36,151 nt of DNA from Pirellulaceae bacterium (GTDB taxonomy: Bacteria > Planctomycetota > Planctomycetia > Pirellulales > Pirellulaceae), in NCBI GenBank assembly GCA_028066335.1, contig JALCBQ010000014.1, forward strand, positions 1-36,151, given 5' to 3'. Each line of letters starts with the position of its first letter. Within the stretch, counting starts at the first letter, position 1. Made by a program: the position numbers and the translations under genes. The notes beneath the pieces were generated by a model. That model saw only the letters and a list, made by a program, of their open reading frames with translations. It was not told where the DNA came from and did not search any database. Shown piece after piece: positions 7,502 to 31,779 of this stretch.

Positions 7502-9373
7502 GTGTACCGATCGCTTGAGCAGACGACGAACGACCTGGAAAAAAATGGCCATCTTATTCGCATAAACGAGGAGGTCGATGCGAATCTGGAAATGGCAGAA
7601 ATTCACCGGCGTGTTTTTCAGTCGTCAGGGCCTGCTATTCTGTTTACGAATGTTAAAGGATGCTCGTTTCCAGCCGTTTCCAACCTTTTTGGTTCCAAAG
7701 ATCGCGTCCATTTTCTTTTCCGATCAACACTAGCGACGGTTCAAAAATTAATTGATCTTAAGGTGGACCCCGCTTCAATCAGGAATCACTGGAAAAGTGG
7801 ATTGTCTCTTGCTCGGGCCGGTTGTCACACATTACCCAAAAAAGTTCGACGTGGTGCTATTTTCGAATCGACGACCGATATTAGCCAGTTGCCACAAGTT
7901 ATCTCATGGCCAAAGGATGGCGGCGCTTTTGTAACATTGCCCCAGGTCTATTCGGAAAGTGCGTTACAGCCGGGTTGGAAAAAATCGAATCTTGGCATGT
8001 ATCGTGTTCAGCTTTCGGGAAACGAGTACCGACCCGATCGACAAGTCGGCCTTCACTATCAAATTCATCGTGGAATAGGTGTCCATCACCAAGAGGCGAT
8101 TGCCTCAAAAAAACCATTCCGGGTGAATATCTTTGTTGGTGGTACGCCGGCGATGACGTTGGCTGCTGTTATGCCACTCCCCGAAGGGATGAGTGAACTG
8201 ACTTTTGCCGGCGCACTTGCAGGCCATCGAATCCCTATGGTCGCTCGGGCCGAAGGACCTGCTATCTATGCCGACGCCGATTTTTGTATTTGTGGTACTG
8301 TCGATCCAGAGCAACTTCTTCCTGAAGGCCCCTTTGGTGATCACCTTGGATACTACAGCTTGCAACATGAGTATCCTGTCCTGAATGTCGAGAAGGTTTA
8401 TCATCGCAAGGGAGCAATTTGGCCGTTTACCGTGGTCGGTCGTCCACCACAAGAAGATACATTCTTTGGCGAGATCATTCACGAAATTACAGGGCCGGTC
8501 ATTCCAACCGTTTTGTCAGGGGTAAAAGGGGTCCATGCCGTCGATGAGGCTGGGGTACACCCCTTGTTGCTTGCCATCGGCAGCGAACGTTATACCCCAT
8601 TTCAGGATGAAAGCCACCCACAAGAACTATTAACACAGGCGAATGCGATTTTGGGCCAGGGCCAGCTTTCATTGGCAAAATTTTTGTTTATTCTCAACGA
8701 GGCAGATGTTCCAGATCTCCGGCTTTCTGAAACAGGTGACTTTTTTGAAGAAATTTTGCAGAGAGTCGAGTGGAGCCGGGACCTGCATTTTCAAACAAAC
8801 ACAACGATAGATACCCTTGACTACTCGGGTAGTGGGGTCAACAGAGGGTCGAAAGTAGTTGTTGCAGCCAGGGGGCCAAAGGTTCGATCGTTATCTGGAG
8901 AACTGCCGGCAGGACTTACCTTGCCTGATGGATTTTGCAATCCCAAAATATGTCGTCGTGGAATACTTGTTATCGAAGGACCCTCCGTAAAAGATAGCGT
9001 GGGCATGGACGGGAGGGGAGATGATTCGGTTTTTTGTCGTTCCGAGGAGAGCTTGCTCCGGTTTTGTAAAAGTTTTACCAAGAAAGATTCGATCAACCAG
9101 TTTCCTCTGATCGTTTTAGTTGACGAGAGTGATTTTGTTGCAAGATCATGGGCAAACTTCTTATGGGTAGTTTTCACCCGAACAAACCCCGCCTCTGATG
9201 TTTTAGGGATAGAGCCTTTTATTCATGAGAAACATTTTGGTGTCCATGGATCATTGGTTTTAGATGCCCGTAAAAAAAATAGACACGCCCCGGCGCTGGT
9301 AGAAGATCCAAAAGTCATGGCAAAAGTCGACGCTCTGGCCGCTAAGGGAGGCCCGTTGGCAAGGTATCTGTAA
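7502..9373 (+). CDS. UbiD-family prenylated-FMN-dependent decarboxylase
   Basis: 623 residues from GTG 7502, which follows AAAGGA at a workable distance. Family landmarks are NLGMYRVQ (substrate/prFMN arginine region), PLPEGMSELTFAGAL, PEGPFGDHLGYYS (from residue 274, containing an active-site glutamate), VGRPPQEDTFFGE and VVFTRTNPASDVLG near the C-terminus. The sequence matches the longer UbiD group (about 600 residues or more) rather than the 490-residue E. coli UbiD. UbiD enzymes decarboxylate aromatic or unsaturated acids, most often in ubiquinone or menaquinone synthesis. The natural substrate here is not shown by context. A UbiX-type prenyl transferase would be needed and is not in this window. 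Confidence 0.85.
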   Translation: MYRSLEQTTNDLEKNGHLIRINEEVDANLEMAEIHRRVFQSSGPAILFTNVKGCSFPAVSNLFGSKDRVHFLFRSTLATVQKLIDLKVDPASIRNHWKSGLSLARAGCHTLPKKVRRGAIFESTTDISQLPQVISWPKDGGAFVTLPQVYSESALQPGWKKSNLGMYRVQLSGNEYRPDRQVGLHYQIHRGIGVHHQEAIASKKPFRVNIFVGGTPAMTLAAVMPLPEGMSELTFAGALAGHRIPMVARAEGPAIYADADFCICGTVDPEQLLPEGPFGDHLGYYSLQHEYPVLNVEKVYHRKGAIWPFTVVGRPPQEDTFFGEIIHEITGPVIPTVLSGVKGVHAVDEAGVHPLLLAIGSERYTPFQDESHPQELLTQANAILGQGQLSLAKFLFILNEADVPDLRLSETGDFFEEILQRVEWSRDLHFQTNTTIDTLDYSGSGVNRGSKVVVAARGPKVRSLSGELPAGLTLPDGFCNPKICRRGILVIEGPSVKDSVGMDGRGDDSVFCRSEESLLRFCKSFTKKDSINQFPLIVLVDESDFVARSWANFLWVVFTRTNPASDVLGIEPFIHEKHFGVHGSLVLDARKKNRHAPALVEDPKVMAKVDALAAKGGPLARYL

Positions 9374-9415: not shown

Positions 9416-10375
9416 ATGCTCGATCTTGAACTACTAGCTTATTTAAAAGATATAATTCTACTGTTATGGTTGACTGCGTTTGGTGGCTTTGTAGGTAGCT
9501 TTTTGAACGTTGTCATTTTTCGTATGCCTAATGGCCAGAGCCTTAGTATTCCGGGATCACACTGTTATTACTGTGGGGTGCCAATTCGTTGGTTTGATAA
9601 TATCCCAGTTTTTAGTTGGTTGTTCCTTGGGGCAAAATGTCGACACTGCCTAGGCCCAATTTCAATCCGTTATCCAATGGTTGAGCTCAGTTTTGCAATC
9701 GTTTCTTTTCTCCTTGCACTGCGAGAAATATTTTCAAAACACTCGCTGGCAGTCCTCGAAAAGCTAAGCCGTTATTATCCCCACGACCATTGGTTGTTTG
9801 TAGAGGTCTTTGAGATACCTGCAGCAGGTTGGGTACGATATAGTGCCTACTTTCTCTTGTTTTGTCTTTTAGGCTCTATTACAGCGATTGGGTATGACCG
9901 GAAAAAGGTCCCTCTTCGGCTCCCAGTTATTGGTGAATTTTTGGGACTGCTGCTCGTCTTGTTTGCACCGGTATTATGGATCGATCTTGGCCCGAATAGT
10001 TGGTGGGATCGCCTTGTTTTAGCAGATAGCTCTCTTTGGGGTGGGGTGAGTTATCTCAACTCCATGGGTGAGCGATTTTTATTGCTGCTACTCTATAGCG
10101 CTTCTATGGTTGTTATCGGTGGCTCCCTTTCCTGGGTTGTCTATCGTAGTTCTACCCATTTTTATCGACGTAGTTGGTGGGCGTTGGCAGCCCAGTATGA
10201 GCTATTAGGGATTTATCTTGGTTGGCCTAGAATGATTGCCCTTTTAGCCTATTCAACACCTCCCCTAATTCTGTTAGTGATCTTTGCAAAGGTCAGAAAA
10301 AAGGAAGTCCCTGAGTACCTCTGGAGCCTTCTTCTTTTCTTTACTGCGATTATTGTCTTCCTGGGGATCGGGTAG
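9416..10375 (+). CDS. Prepilin peptidase homologue (A24 family), probably lacking peptidase activity
   Basis: 319 residues with several membrane segments. The N-terminal part matches the prepilin peptidase methylase/zinc region: [12 protein letters not shown], then CYYC (53-56) and CRHC (75-78), followed by [10 protein letters not shown]. The C-terminal part resembles the A24 peptidase domain but the catalytic aspartates are not where expected. In [10 protein letters not shown] the position normally held by the first Asp is Gly159. In place of GxGDxKL before LGWP there is [16 protein letters not shown], with Leu257 at the second Asp position. The active-type enzyme cleaves and methylates type IV pilin-like leaders at the inner membrane; this copy may only methylate or bind. 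The alignment was made by eye. Confidence 0.68.
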
Positions 10376-17949: not shown

Positions 17950-17993
17950 CAGGTTTTTGTTTTGCGCTCCATTTGGCATTTCTAAATATTTCT

Positions 17994-20900
17994 ATGACAG
18001 ATACTTCGATCGTTGTGCGCGGTGCTCGTGAGCACAATTTGCAAAATATCAAGCTTGAACTGCCCCAAAACCAGTTGATCTGCCTAACGGGCGTTAGTGG
18101 AAGTGGAAAAAGCTCGCTCGCTTTTGATACCCTCTATGCAGAAGGGCAACGGCGGTACATCGAAAGTCTTTCGAGCTTTGCGAGACAGTTTTTAGGACAA
18201 ATGCCCAAACCAGAGGTCGATATGATTTCTGGATTACGGCCGACGATTTCGATTTCTCAAAAATCGACGGGAAACAATCCTCGATCAACCGTTGGAACCA
18301 TTACCGAAATTTATGACTATCTAAGAGTCCTTTATGCAAGGATTGGCCAAGGGCATTGTCCAGATTGTGGTCGTCAGCTTACCTCGCAAACTCGGGACCA
18401 AATTTTAGAACAGATTCTGGGTTTACCTGAGGAGACAAAAGTTCAAATCCTTGCACCCGTTGTCCAAAATCAGAAGGGTGAATTCAAAGACCTTTTTATC
18501 GACCTTCAGAAGGAGGGGTTTGCAAGGGTTCGTGTCGATGGCGAGATCTCGACATTGCAAGATGTTCCACCTCTCGATCGACAGATGCGCCATCAGATTG
18601 AGGTCGTTATTGACCGGCTGAAGATTCGAAAGAAAGTCAGAGGCCGGCTCGCCGAAGCGGTCGAACTCGCATTGGCAACAGGAAAGGGAAAGTTAATTGC
18701 ATTGGTCGATTCGGCCTCCAAAATAGCTGCTAAAAGTAATATAAATATTCAGGAAATTACTCAGGAAGAAGAACTTTTTTTCTCTGAAGATTACGCCTGC
18801 GTCTATTGTTCTCATAGTTTTGAAACGCCCGAGCCACAACTTTTCAGTTTTAATAGTCCACATGGAATGTGTCAGGAGTGCGACGGCCTTGGCGAATTAT
18901 TTTCCTTTGACCCAGATTTGCTTATCCCTGATGAAGAGTTGCCTTTTAAAGATGGTGCTTTTGAAATTTTAGGAAAGTGGAAAGATATGGGCCGTTGGCG
19001 ACGCCATATCTATCAAGGGGTAGCGGATACGATTGAGCGGAAGCAGGCGATCCCTTCAGGAACAATGTTAGAGACACCATGGGGGATGTTATCAGATGAG
19101 CTCAAAAAAATATGGCTTTGGGGAACGGGGAAAGCGAATATCACATTTACCTGGCGCGGAGGTAATTCACCGATCAAGTATGGCGGAACATTCTCGGGAA
19201 TCATCGGGCAATTCCTGGAGAAGTATCGTGAAACCAAAAGCAAGCCAAAATTACGCCAATATGAAAAATATATGCGCCGCCAAAGCTGTCCCCATTGTGA
19301 AGGGAAGCGTCTAAACCCTCAGGCCTGTTTTGTAACGATTACCTCTCTTGATGAAGAAGGGGGTATGTGTCAAACGCTCTCTCTTCCTGAAGCATGTCAG
19401 TTATCGGTTAAAGAGGCAGCCGACTTTTTTGCAAAAGTTCAACTTAGCAAAACAGAAGAAGTGATTGCAGAAGAGCCCCTTAAAGAGATCTGCGGTCGCC
19501 TGAATTTTCTCAAAGATGTCGGCCTTGAATATCTTTCACTTGAGCGAACGGCACCGACTCTGTCAGGTGGTGAGGCGCAGAGGATTCGTCTTGCAAGCCA
19601 AATCGGTTGTGGGTTGGTCGGCGTTCTCTACATTTTGGATGAACCTTCTATCGGCCTTCACGCAAGGGATAATCAGCGTCTTATTGGCACGCTGAAAACT
19701 TTGCGAGATATGGGTAACACCGTTGTCGTCGTTGAGCATGACGAAGAGACAATGAATGCTGCCGATTATCTTGTCGACTTTGGCCCTGGCCCTGGTGTGC
19801 GTGGTGGAGAAATTGTTGCACAGGGGAGCCCCCAGGAATTTCTTAAAAGTCGGCGTAGCCTTACGGCAAAGTTTCTTTCTGGCAAAGAAAAGGTTAAGAG
19901 AACCTTTCAAGAGAGGGAGTTTAATGGGAAACAGCTACAAATACGTGGGGCGCGTCATAATAACTTGAAGGGGATCGATGTTGATATTCCGTTAGGGGTT
20001 TTTGTTTGTGTAACAGGTGTTAGTGGTAGTGGTAAAAGCTCGTTAGTAAACGACATTATCAAAGAAGCCTTGCATAGAGACCTCAATCGTGGCGAAGGAA
20101 ATCCTGGGGAGTATGTCGAACTCTTGGGGCAAGAACACCTGGACAAACTCATTGCCATTGATCAATCACCCATTGGACGGACTCCACGGAGTAACCCTGT
20201 TACCTACATCAAGGTCTGGGACGAAATTCGAAAACTCTATGCCTCCTTGCCAGATGCGAAAAGGCGCGGATATCAGCCTGGACGTTTTAGTTTTAATGTA
20301 TCAGGTGGTCGTTGCGAGGCTTGCTCGGGAAATGGCAGTAATCGGCTCGAAATGGATTTTCTGGCCGATATTTGGGTGACATGTCCTGTCTGCGAGGGAC
20401 ACCGCTTTAACCGTGAAACATTACAGGTTCGCTTTAAAGATCATTCGATCGCCGATGTTCTTGAGCTAGATATTCAACAAGCGATGGAGCTTTTTGAGAA
20501 TATTCCTAAAATTTATGATAAGCTCAAAACCCTTCACGATGTCGGTCTTGACTATTTAAAGCTTGGTCAACCTTCGCCAACTCTTTCTGGTGGTGAGGCA
20601 CAACGGATCAAGTTGGCCCGAGAACTTTCAAAGCGGAGTACCGGCAAAACCCTCTATGTCCTTGATGAACCAACGACGGGTCTCCATTTCCACGATATTC
20701 AGCTTCTTCTTAATCTGTTGCATAGTCTCGTTGAGAAGGGGAACACCGTTTTGGTTATCGAGCATAATCTTGATGTTATTCGAAATTCAGATTGGATCAT
20801 CGATATTGGGCCGGAGGGAGGCGATGCCGGAGGCGAAGTAATTGCTACAGGTGCTCCAAGAGAACTTGCGAAAAAGAGAGGAACGCCGACAGCCGACCTT

Positions 20901-23900
20901 TTGAATGATTACTATCATGGCAATGCTTTAAGCAAAAAAGAAAAGGAGGCCACTTTACCTGCCGATGAATTTGTCGGTAAAAATAAAGAGTTTATCGAAG
21001 TTCGGCAGGCTGAACAACATAACCTTAAAAAGATTGATGTTCGGGTGCCCCGAGATCAAATGTCGGTTTTTTGCGGCCCAAGTGGTAGTGGAAAAACTTC
21101 CCTAGCGATGGATACGATCTATGCCGAAGGACAACGGCGCTATGTTGAAAGTCTCAGTTCGTATGCTCGACAATTTGTCGGTCAAATGCAAAAGCCAAAG
21201 CTGGAGCATATTGAAGGACTCTCTCCTGCAATAGCTATTGAGCAAAAAAACTTAGGTCACACACCTCGGTCGACAGTCGGAACCGTTACCGAAATTTATG
21301 ATTATTTTCGGATTCTTATGGCACGGCTTGGAACTCCTTACTGTCCTGAATGTGAAGTTCCTGTCGGCACCCAGACGACTGACCAAATTGTCGACAAACT
21401 GCTAGCCGAACCCGAAGGTACAAAGCTTCTTTTATTAGCGCCTGTCGAGCTAGAGAATATCCAAGAGGCTGAGCATCTTTGGGAAGAACTCGAAGGAAAC
21501 GGTTTTTTGCGTGTTCTCCTCAATGGCAAGTTGTATACCCTCTCTGAGAGTAAGCCGAGTTTTGACCGTAGAAAGAAAAATGATCTTTTTGTTGTCGTCG
21601 ATCGGCTAACGATTAATCCAGGTGGACAAAGTCGAATTACCGAAAGTACCGAGCTGGGGTTGGCAATCGGTAAAGGAGTCATCAAGGTTCTCTATTGGGA
21701 GGCGAATGTTCCTGAGACAAAATGGCGATCGGTAACACATAGTCAACACCTGGCCTGCCATGACTGTGGCCAAAGCTTTCAGCGGCTGACACCTCATAAT
21801 TTTTCGTTTAATAGTACCTTAGGATGGTGTTCTGCTTGCGAAGGGTTAGGGAAGCAGGTCGGTACAAATTTATCGGCACTGTTAAACAGTCCCAAGCTTA
21901 GTTTAGCCGAGGGAGCGATCGCTCTTTGGCCAAATCTTGCAAGTCGTACTGCACAAATGATGTTACTCGCCCTTGCCAAAGGTTGGGATCTGCCACTTGG
22001 CCAGCCCTTTGACCAATTACGGCCCGACAAACGGCGATTGCTTCTTCAAGGAAATGACCGTAGTAAACACCGTAGTAAACCAGGTCATCAGTGGCTTTCT
22101 ATTACGGAAGCCGAAGAGGAGGCGGCTAAAAAAATATGGAAAGAGAGTGGCCAGCTCAACAAAAAAGAGTTAGCCAAATGGGAAAAAGAGAGACACAAGT
22201 CAGGTAAAAAGACGATATTTCAGTTTCAATTTAAAGGACTCTATGTTGCCCTTGAAGAGGCTTCTCGAGTGAACCCTGGTTTCCGAAGGAAACTTGAACC
22301 ATTTGTTGACGAGGTCGATTGCTCGGCTTGTGCCGGCACGCGATTGCGAGAAGATGCAGCCGCTGTTCGTCTTCAGGGAAAAACAATCGGTGAGATTGTC
22401 CAAATGCCATTGGCCGAGGCATATACCTTGGTAAAGAAATGGAAGTGGGATAGACAACAGAAAAAGGTCGCCGGTGAGGTCATTCGAGAAATTCAAAGCC
22501 GATTACAGTTTCTTATTGATGTTGGATTACATTATGTCACCCTTTCCCGAGAAGCCAAAACGCTGTCGAATGGAGAGTCACAACGTATTCGTCTGGCAAG
22601 TCAGCTAGGGAGTGGCCTGTGTGGTGTTCTCTATGTCCTAGATGAACCGACGATTGGGCTTCACCCTCGTGATAATGGACGTTTGCTCAAGGCTCTTCAT
22701 CGCTTGCGTGATCTTGGAAACACGCTCCTTGTTGTCGAGCATGATAAAGATGTTATCGCTTCAAGCGACGCGATTTATGACTTTGGGTCCGCTGCTGGAA
22801 AGCATGGTGGGAAAATCGTCGCTAACGGAACCCCAAAAGGTGTTTCTCGGCAACCAAACTCGGTAACGGGTCCCTATCTTCATGGTACAAAAGGGATTCC
22901 AATTCCAACCCAAAGGAGAATGCCATCAAATAGTGTTATTTCCGGAAAGAAAGGGAAGAAGAGACAAACCTTAAAAGAGAAGGGGAAAACTACTCGAAAG
23001 CGGGAGTCAGAGGCCCGAAAGAATTCGCCCCTCTTGTCGCCTGAGGCAATCTCCTGGATTCGTATTGAAGGAGCCCGTGAAAATAACCTTAAAGGAATCG
23101 ATGTCCAAATTCCACTTGGAGTTTTGTCTTGTGTAACGGGGGTAAGTGGTAGTGGCAAGAGTTCATTGGTTAACAAAGTTCTTTATAACTTTTTAGCAAG
23201 GACTCTTCATCGTGCGAGTACGATTCCTGGTTCTTGTGAACAGATTACTGGTGTTGAACATATCAACAAAGTTATCCAAGTCGATCAACAACCGATTGGG
23301 AACTCACCTTCCAGTAATCCAGCGACTTATACCGGTATTTTTGAGCAAATCCGAAACCTCTTTGCGATGTTACCCGAGGCAAAGCTTAGAGGTTATTCTG
23401 CCAGGCGTTTTAGTTTTAATGTTCCAGGTGGCCGTTGTGAAGCATGTGAAGGAAATGGGCAAAAGTGTATTAAAATGCATTTTATGCCCGATGTATGGGT
23501 CGAATGCGATGTCTGTGATGGTAAGCGATATAATCAAGAAACGCTGGGGGTGAAGTATCAGGGCTACGCTATCAGCGACGTTCTGGAAATGACATGTCAA
23601 GAATCGCTTGAGCTCTTTGCAACGATCCCTAAAATTCGTAAAGGTCTGCAGACGTTATGTGATGTCGGCTTGGGTTACCTCTCTCTTGGCCAGCCTGCAC
23701 CGACCCTTTCTGGTGGTGAATCACAGCGGGTCAAATTGGCGGCTGAGCTTGCCCGTCCTGATACCGGACGGACCCTCTACATATTAGATGAACCGACGAC
23801 CGGGCTCCATTTTGACGACCTTGCAAAGCTGCTCGAAGTCTTGCAGCGCCTTGTCGATTTGGGGAACTCTGTTTTGTTAATTGAACATAACCTCGATGTA

Positions 23901-25109
23901 ATTAAGGTCTCTGATTGGCTTATCGAGATGGGGCCAGAAGGGGGTGATAGTGGGGGTCAAGTGCTCTATTGTGGTACTCCAGAAGATTTAGTGGCAAATG
24001 AAAAGGTTCAAGCAAAACGATCGGCCAAAAAGAAAGAGTTCGTATTTTCCCATACAGCGAAGGCACTTTTACCCGTCTTGGAAGGGAGCCAGAGTCAAAC
24101 GCGTGCGACTTATAGCCGAGCTAAAGCAATTGAGGAGGAAGAGGCCGAATCGACAGAACTACAGGAGTTACAAGATAATTTTCAGATGCCATGGGAAGAA
24201 GATGGGCACAAATGGCATACCGAAGGGCGGCTTGACAGGAAAGGACAACCGTGTAGGTGGGATGGCCAGATTTTGGAAAAAGTTCTCGAAAAAATTCATA
24301 GTTATGGCGATTTTCCGGAGACCAATTACTCGAATAAAACAGTCGTTGAAGTTACCTCTCACCGTAAATCGGCAGGTTGGTTTTTTCATGCAATTACAGC
24401 AGAGACATGGTTAATTAAAATGAAATTTCGTGTTGCAGCCGGGACCTTCAAGCAGGCTTCATTGCTTAAAAGGCTACCGTTAACCTCCTTAAACGAAATG
24501 GACGACTTGCCAATTTATGGAAACGAATCTCGGGTCTCTTGCAAACAGCTAGGGCGATGGCAAGAGCTCCAAATTAAAGCGCATACTTTTGAGGAACTCG
24601 ATCGACCTGAGTTCTATGTGATTTTAGAAGAAGCCGTCGACGGCTTCTATCGAGAAGTCGATCGCGCCGACCAAAATCCTGATGCGATTATGCCCTGGAA
24701 AACAAAAGGGCAACTTTGGCATTTGTCCAGAAAAGGCTTTATGCCACGACGGACGATTCGCTGGAAATCAGTCGTTTTGGAACGCTTGCTTGAAATCTTT
24801 GACGATGTTGCCCCTGAGGCACAGATATTGTGGAATAACAAAATTCTTATCCACCTTTATTTGCCTCAGCAGAAAACTCCCTGGGCGACCGTTATTACGA
24901 AAAAAAATGAATACCTTGAACTTATCCTTAATGGACCCAAAAATGTTTTCACGTACGGACAGCTGACTAATTTTGGTCATGAACGTGAGTTCGATACCCT
25001 GGGTAAAGAGACTGATACCATCAAACTCCGTTTTCAAATGGAAGACGATCTTTACCTCGGCGATTTTCCAGCCTTTCTAAAACAACACTACCAAGCCTTA
25101 ACGGCCTAA
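17994..25109 (+). CDS. uvrA: Tandem-duplicated excinuclease ABC subunit A with C-terminal extension
   Basis: 2371 residues from ATG 17994; a TTG 21 bases upstream is also possible. Two full UvrA units are fused. Each has two ABC ATPase modules: Walker A near residues 33, 675, 1028 and 1716, and signatures near 523 (LSGGEAQR), 864 (LSGGEAQR), 1524 (LSNGESQR) and 1905 (LSGGESQR). All four Walker B boxes (LDEP) and H-loops are kept. UvrA zinc modules with paired CxxC are present in both units (for example CVYC/CQEC, CEAC/CPVC, CHDC/CSAC, CEAC/CDVC). After about residue 2003 comes a 370-residue extension with two related halves beginning [11 protein letters not shown] (about 2065) and [11 protein letters not shown] (about 2233). 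Ordinary UvrA is about 950 residues and works as a dimer in recognising DNA lesions for UvrB/UvrC; this chain may be a covalent dimer. Confidence 0.92.
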
Positions 25110-30691: not shown

Positions 30692-31594
30692 CTACGTTGT
30701 CAAGTCATCGTGGATAAGAAGTTCTTCATAGACTTTTTGAACCATCTCTTCGTCGATATGGTCAGCTCCACCCTCGGCAGCGACAGCAAGAGAAAGCTCG
30801 GCAAGGTGGTTGATTTTTCGGGGGTTTCCTTCACTGAGGTGGTAAAGGTCTCGGCACGCCTCTTCACTAAAAATGGTAATCGGCCCATCAGGATGGTCTA
30901 AAGGGCGATGGTTTTCCAGTAGAAACTGAAGATAGTCGTAGGTCTCTTCTTCCGAAAAAGGGTCGATATCAATTCGTAGCTGGCACGAATCAATGATTTG
31001 TCGATTCAGGTGAATCAAGCGGTAACTGTTGACTCCTAGTAGAAACGTCGCTCCATTTTCAGAGTAGCTGGCATTGAGGAGTCGTAAAAGTGGCACCTCA
31101 AGTTTTTCGCTCCGATCGAAATCATCTAGGACAAAAATCGGGGCCCATTTATTTTGGCGGGTACGGTAGAGCGCCTGTTCAATCTGTTGCCACAAGATCA
31201 TCGTCCAGCGAGGTAACGAAGAGATTTCTGTCTCGTAGGCAACGGGACAATGGAGCTTTTTCCCAAGTTGACTTAAAAACTCTTCTTCACGTTGGCCATA
31301 GACATTAAGATAATAAACGCCCTGATTACGTCGGTCATCGGCAGGACGTTGCTGGAATTGTTGAAAGAGTGTCGTCTTCCCTGAGCCACTGCTACCGAGG
31401 ACAATCCCTAGTGAGTAACCCATCGTTGCTAGAAATTGTAGGCGAGCCAAGGCTTCACCATGGCTACCACCATCAAAAAATGGTGGCAATGTGTTCGATG
31501 GCTGCAGACTGTGAAGACGGGAGCTTTGATGAAACGGGGAGCTTGTAAAACCCCAGTGATCAAGGTGTGGAAGATTTTTAGTCGGTTGGATCAT
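30692..31594 (-). CDS. ExeA/GspA-like AAA+ ATPase
   Basis: 300 residues from ATG 31594, chosen because GAGGACC sits directly before it; a TTG start 31 codons upstream is unsupported. The N-terminus HWGFTSSPF and the segment GGSHGEALARLQF match the ExeA start (W-G-x-x-x-x-P-F ... H-x-E-A). Walker A is GSSGSGKT (67-74), Walker B is IFVLDDFD (153-160). A sensor-like GVNSYRLI and the NPRKINHLAELSL arginine-finger/C-domain region follow. ExeA-type ATPases help assemble the type II secretin through peptidoglycan; related proteins serve transposition. There is no peptidoglycan-binding domain or membrane span and no type II secretion gene nearby, so the role is open. Confidence 0.78.
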   Translation of the reverse strand: MIQPTKNLPHLDHWGFTSSPFHQSSRLHSLQPSNTLPPFFDGGSHGEALARLQFLATMGYSLGIVLGSSGSGKTTLFQQFQQRPADDRRNQGVYYLNVYGQREEEFLSQLGKKLHCPVAYETEISSLPRWTMILWQQIEQALYRTRQNKWAPIFVLDDFDRSEKLEVPLLRLLNASYSENGATFLLGVNSYRLIHLNRQIIDSCQLRIDIDPFSEEETYDYLQFLLENHRPLDHPDGPITIFSEEACRDLYHLSEGNPRKINHLAELSLAVAAEGGADHIDEEMVQKVYEELLIHDDLTT

Positions 31595-31779
31595 CTGGTC
31601 CTCTTTCTTGGAAAGGCAAAGGGGGGGCTCAATGGAGAGTTCCCTTCTCCCTTTTCGGCTTAAATAGAGGGTGTTCTTGGACGACAATCAACCTGCCAAG
31701 ACAAAATATGGGCATCCAAAAAAATTTTCACTGCAAGATCAATACAATCCACAAAACTTAATGTGATCGATAACAAATT

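Follow-up and report, generated by a model that had tools for sequence, protein, structure and literature searches.

A PilD homologue that keeps its methylase domain and lacks the catalytic aspartates is probably one half of a split prepilin peptidase in a planctomycete order

What can a prepilin peptidase homologue do once both of its catalytic aspartates are gone? The question is raised by a gene in the window, the whole 36,151-nucleotide stretch of Pirellulaceae DNA that we analyzed. At 9416..10375 on the + strand it encodes a 319-aa protein with an ATG start, here called A, in which the methylase-type zinc domain is kept and the peptidase aspartates are lost. Residues 22-102 (9479..9721, +) match A24_N_bact (PF06750) at 107.3-109.6 bits, and PF01478 Peptidase_A24 was not matched in Pfam at E <= 1; NCBIfam gave no match at E <= 0.01 to A or to its partner B, described below. 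We read the zinc and aspartate columns from an alignment of 265 homologues. The first CxxC pair, Cys50 and Cys53, lies at 9563..9574 (+), and Ala73, Lys74 and the second pair, Cys75 and Cys78, at 9632..9649 (+). Gly159 stands in the first catalytic Asp column (9890..9898, +, for Gly159 through Asp161, with Asp161 itself at 9896-9898), Leu257 stands in the GxGD Asp column (10184..10186, +), and no GxGD motif is found anywhere in A in this alignment. A sequence-only reading of this DNA had reported the same coordinates, intact CxxC pairs, the same two substitutions and the absence of GxGD, and was right on each; it proposed either a methyltransferase-only enzyme or a pseudoprotease that binds pilin leaders. 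A UbiD family gene (7502..9373, +) ends 42 bp upstream of A, relatives of it occur at 9/73 of the loci searched, and it is a neighbor outside the mechanism proposed here. No pilus gene cluster was seen around A in the window. The genome measures 2.9 Mb in 208 contigs and is 96% complete.

We then considered the degenerate A24 half of A. In a predicted structure (pLDDT 79.4, with canonical PilDs in the input alignment), residues 140-319 (9833..10372, +) resemble the archaeal peptidase FlaK, aligning with 3s0x_B over 136 residues at Z 12.0 and rmsd 2.9 in a second-look aligner that ranked FlaK first. Foldseek alone returned no match to the model at E <= 0.001. Solved structures searched by sequence yielded no prepilin peptidase and one chance-level match (E 0.99). 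The model suggests that a shell of the peptidase fold remains in the C-terminal half of A.

A PF06750 search of the window genome at E <= 0.01 returned the window gene as the sole strong match and one weak match, of 17.8 bits, on another contig. The weak match belongs to B, a 466-aa ORF on a separate contig (L005 610-2010) that carries Peptidase_A24 but in which A24_N was unmatched at E <= 0.01. By alignment B has both catalytic aspartates, Asp184 and Asp357. All four zinc cysteines are gone, and their places are taken by Gln80, Asn83, Glu105 and Phe108. A and B are mirror images: the zinc cysteines are in one protein and the catalytic aspartates in the other. The genome encodes two more short A24 proteins, each with both aspartates, which in our judgment look TadV-like. 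The question of a second, active A24 peptidase is therefore answered with three candidates whose sequences look active, namely B and these two.

A survey of 98 genomes from the family and order of the window genome gave 94 B rows and 103 strong matches to PF06750. The 102 A-type proteins counted here are the 103 strong matches, the window included, minus the canonical protein of genome G064; the B row of G064 was dropped as it is the same gene as its A row. The A form (cysteines present, aspartates absent) was found in 92/98 genomes and the B form (the reverse) in 93/98. Both occur in 88 genomes, A only in four, B only in five, and a canonical copy alone in one, G064. All four cysteines are present in 101/102 A proteins and both aspartates in 0/102; ten keep the first Asp alone, and two have an Asp in the second column alone, a pattern well outside what chance would give. 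The Glu at the YPxxE place is present in 102/102. Among the B rows, none of 94 has the full Cys set (one row has a single Cys) and 90/94 have both aspartates, the other four being incomplete ORFs. The genomes with B and no A (5/93) are 72, 82, 97, 81 and 94% complete, and those with A and no B (4/92) are 91, 89, 94 and 82% complete. We rejected chance pairing of A and B, given that both are in 88/98 genomes. We likewise rejected the idea that a canonical copy is merely missing from the assemblies: of ten single-contig genomes, nine show the same split, having both A and B but lacking a canonical copy; the tenth is G064. Outside the class, four cysteines and both aspartates occur together in 28/28 complete proteins. 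That outgroup was taken from 144 matching genomes as the 29 best-scoring PF06750 loci, less the protein of G183, which is cut by a contig end; since only best-scoring loci were included, the figure says nothing about absence of A outside the class.

The complementary loss goes beyond the cysteines and aspartates. Over 25 N-domain columns (>= 80% conserved in 54 canonical proteins) the frequency of the canonical residue averages 0.93 for A but 0.35 for B, and over 22 C-domain columns 0.36 for A but 0.88 for B. According to one study of PilD, methylation stops when zinc is removed while cleavage goes on, and two residues flanking the third Cys, one Gly and one basic, contribute to methylation (PMC3584216). 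The Gly place is occupied by Gly in 99/103 strong PF06750 rows (G064 included) and by Arg in 69/94 B rows. The basic place holds Arg or Lys in 96/102 A proteins and Glu or Asp in 74/94 B rows. In the window protein the two places are Ala73, which departs from the methylase pattern, and Lys74, which fits it; Ala at the Gly place occurs in 4/103 strong rows and also in 3/28 canonical proteins of the outgroup.

Which of the two genes is the original? aroK is a neighbor of 67/94 B loci and of the canonical G064 gene, but of 0/102 A loci, where the stretches scanned for aroK and aroDE extend 1.5 to 5 kb on each side. Relatives of aroDE are near 61 B loci and in G064, and near three A loci. In the class outside the order, aroK stands beside a copy with both aspartates at 27/40 loci and beside none of six A copies there. 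B thus occupies the locus where relatives hold canonical PilD and A does not, so that B is the old gene, in syntenic descent from the ancestral enzyme, and A is a moved duplicate. A tree gave a compatible picture. It contained 98 rows and 330 columns, excluded A proteins under 250 aa and B proteins under 350 aa, and combined random samples (32 A, 22 B, 12/28 outgroup and 14/25 same-class canonical proteins) with the window pair, all 15 other same-class rows and G064. The A proteins of the order and those of another order fell on one side of a branch with SH-aLRT 99, a grouping that may be a long-branch artefact given the degenerate half of A and its long-branched rows. B formed another branch (SH-aLRT 100) with canonical G064 beside it (98). 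The Cys-less copies of another family of the class (f21) and of genome G246 fell elsewhere, among the canonical relatives of their own families. With the N-domain alone (66 rows), a single A clade was not rejected (p-AU 0.642), and a FastTree tree of this domain left A unresolved.

These data suggest a model that starts from duplication of an ancestral bifunctional PilD encoded at aroDE-aroK. In the moved copy, A, the catalytic aspartates would have been lost while the zinc domain persisted; in B, which stayed in place, the zinc cysteines would have disappeared while the aspartates persisted. Once B had cleaved the leader of a prepilin, A would methylate the new N-terminus in a reaction dependent on zinc and S-adenosylmethionine, acting by itself or in a complex with B. 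From residue patterns and gene positions, we consider it probable that A supplies the N-methyltransferase half of a duplicated, split PilD, acting in trans on pilins cut by B. We infer the activities of A and B, the order of the steps and any contact between the two proteins; the complementary pattern, its breadth, the location of B at the canonical PilD locus and the constraint on A are direct observations. Weighing against the model are Ala73 in the window protein, the few genomes with just one of the two genes, the constraint still seen on the C half of A, and the location of A outside any pilus gene cluster. Of the two earlier proposals, the methyltransferase-only one has good support from the comparison: A retains, and B lacks, the residues that published work links to methylation, and for the cutting residues the opposite is true.

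Alternatively, A could be a pseudoenzyme subunit that pairs with B, with a zinc domain that serves folding, stability or prepilin docking and performs no methylation. The presence of A and B together in 88/98 genomes would fit this, as would the A24 half of A, which is FlaK-like in the model and under some constraint. The N-domain remnant of B also fits, since it has a conserved pattern of its own. We nevertheless find this reading unlikely. The residues kept in A are those tied to methylation, not to cleavage, and TadV-type peptidases work without a methylase domain, as described in PMC10191384. The cleanest split also speaks against it. The nearest named relative of A is in Planctomycetaceae bacterium isolate Po218_bin82 (L038, JAITOZ010000026.1), with 57% identity to window A in the best segment (query residues 12-90). 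It is a 141-aa protein (model pLDDT 79.7) consisting of A24_N alone, and it adjoins pilM, which was near none of the other A or B loci examined. The one B-like match of this genome is a 330-aa frame with Peptidase_A24 at 55.5 bits, in which A24_N was unmatched at E <= 1; it has a GFGD motif and the Asp of the first motif. Judged by these domains, the split is complete in this MAG, where each half is a separate protein and neither carries the other half. Five of the 94 complete A proteins measure just 101-178 aa, with the A24 half mostly or wholly gone. The second of the earlier proposals, that an intact A24 half binds leaders, therefore cannot describe what A does in general, but it may apply to those A proteins in which this half remains.

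As a separate observation, the Cys-less N-domain of B (for example L005 610-2010) has conserved residues of its own and is not in free drift. The pattern is possibly a contact site for A.

Returning to A as a methyltransferase, one may ask which proteins it would modify. At E <= 0.01 the window genome shows 18 N_methyl matches, 15 of them over the cut-off, as well as six matches to SBP_bac_10, two to PilM and seven to T2SSE-family ATPases over the cut-off; likely substrates and machinery thus exist in the genome. With so many N_methyl proteins and six of the SBP_bac_10 (DUF1559) family, A might methylate a particular pilin-like set, this family or pseudopilins, and not pilins generally, and the presence of at least two strong A-type PF06750 genes in 9/98 genomes would agree with such specialization. 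However, the neighborhood of A varies and points to no one substrate, and in the named MAG A adjoins pilM, so that we regard a restricted substrate range as improbable.

Another possibility is that A is a decaying paralogue without function, its peptidase half being degenerate and at times mostly lost. We examined selection on A in same-genus pairs, of which four were usable and a fifth was saturated in the N half. The N half gave dN/dS values of 0.08-0.18 and the C half values of 0.19-0.37, with nearly equal halves in one pair (0.177 and 0.194); these are only a rough guide since synonymous sites are near saturation in most pairs. Read in this rough way, they indicate that selection maintains A and acts more strongly on its N half. 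A dN/dS below 0.4 in all four usable pairs, the presence of A in 92/98 genomes, and the retention of four cysteines (101/102) and the YPxxE Glu (102/102) despite wide divergence make functionless decay very improbable, and on conservation and dN/dS we rejected a pseudogene. That A remains a protease through other residues such as Asp161, which is Asp in 92/102 A proteins, is scarcely credible, given that this column is also Asp in 86/94 B rows and 20/25 same-class canonical proteins, that no acid is conserved in the GxGD Asp column of A, and that five complete A proteins have only 101-178 aa. The sequence-only reading had named Asp161 as an example of a residue whose placement in the active site by a structure-based alignment would refute it; in the sequence alignment it lies two residues past the first catalytic column, and on the column alignment we rejected alternative catalytic aspartates in A. 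Since Asp161 is matched in B and canonical proteins, where it lies beside the true catalytic Asp, it is an inherited neighbor and not a new residue. Its retention and the constraint on the C half imply that this half still does something, and suggest a structural role for the residual A24 half, perhaps in holding the pilin helix.

Outside the order, six genomes of the class have an aroK-linked Cys-less copy (G133, G204, G246, G288, G305 and G309), and an A-type gene is found in 6/6. Among 32 genomes with a canonical aroK-linked copy, A is present in 14 and absent from 18. The difference, 6/6 versus 14/32, has a Fisher p of 0.014 over the 38 genomes, with kinship ignored. The table holds genomes whose copies were read and scanned, which excludes G295, G274 and those whose copies were unread. 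G115, G162 and G228, each canonical and lacking an A match at E <= 0.001, were not counted; including them would enlarge the group that is canonical and has no A. The A genes of the table were judged by motif pattern and then by alignment. The Cys losses of f21 may be a single event. Canonical copies also score lower for PF06750 when A is present (median 108.2 versus 112.3; one-sided p 0.014, kinship ignored). Across 24 A-type loci outside the order, which include L329 and L348 (= L274 and L284), four cysteines are present in 24/24 and both aspartates in 0/24; the first Asp is kept in two, and six have an Asp in a poorly aligned second column. Two genomes with a Cys-less copy at aroK, G133 and G288, are exceptions in having a third copy away from aroK with cysteines and aspartates (L276 and L373). 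We think it somewhat likely that a stand-alone pilin N-methyltransferase, 101-141 aa long in some relatives, was freed order-wide; it may dock with the peptidase and could be regulated separately. As part of the same view, loss of the aroK-linked zinc site would have recurred in other families, with A in all six genomes read.

Two further features were seen. The f21 genomes carry extra short A24 copies, with aspartates and without cysteines, away from aroK (L280, L283, L287, L290, L292 and L293). In G274, the canonical gene linked to aroK (L345) appears as two frames, of 322 and 201 aa, by a frameshift or a real split.

How does this arrangement compare with known systems? A shares with PilD/GspO-type enzymes (A24_N plus Peptidase_A24) the two CxxC pairs, the basic residue before the third Cys and, in the model, the FlaK-like C-terminal half, in keeping with common ancestry. 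Unlike them, it has no catalytic aspartates and no GxGD, and the cutting residues are in a second gene. Peptidases without a methylase are already known. B resembles this group, which includes TadV and archaeal FlaK, in having both aspartates and no zinc cysteines, but it descends from a bifunctional PilD at aroK and coexists with A; window A is the opposite case, with the methylase domain present and the peptidase residues gone. Division of a type IV filament component into two proteins is also seen in TadB/TadC, a platform protein in two genes; PMC6668835 and PMC10191384 explain it by the splitting of a single gene that had two similar domains. Here, in contrast, duplication and complementary loss would have separated two unlike activities. 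A literature search, with most subscription papers outside its scope, found no Asp-less PilD homologue, no split enzyme and no report of a methylase without a peptidase. The chemistry would be that of PilD; the split arrangement is new to us.

The two activities of PilD are hard to separate genetically because they are on one polypeptide, and a natural split offers a way to test what pilin methylation is for. If the model is true, removal of A should abolish methylation alone and removal of B should abolish cutting, and the small A forms would define a minimal methylase. Annotation based on the N-domain would call A a prepilin peptidase.

Finally, we note some observations on other proteins. 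Three MAGs, labeled Opitutaceae, unclassified and Akkermansia (L041, L042 and L045), encode PilDs with altered Cys spacing instead of two CxxC pairs. Within the window, a 2378-aa ORF at 17973-25109 (+) matches the UvrA interaction domain in two stretches and the UvrA DNA-binding domain in two, and is apparently two tandem UvrA units in one protein. An ORF at 30692-31687 (-) matches a NACHT/AAA-type NTPase.
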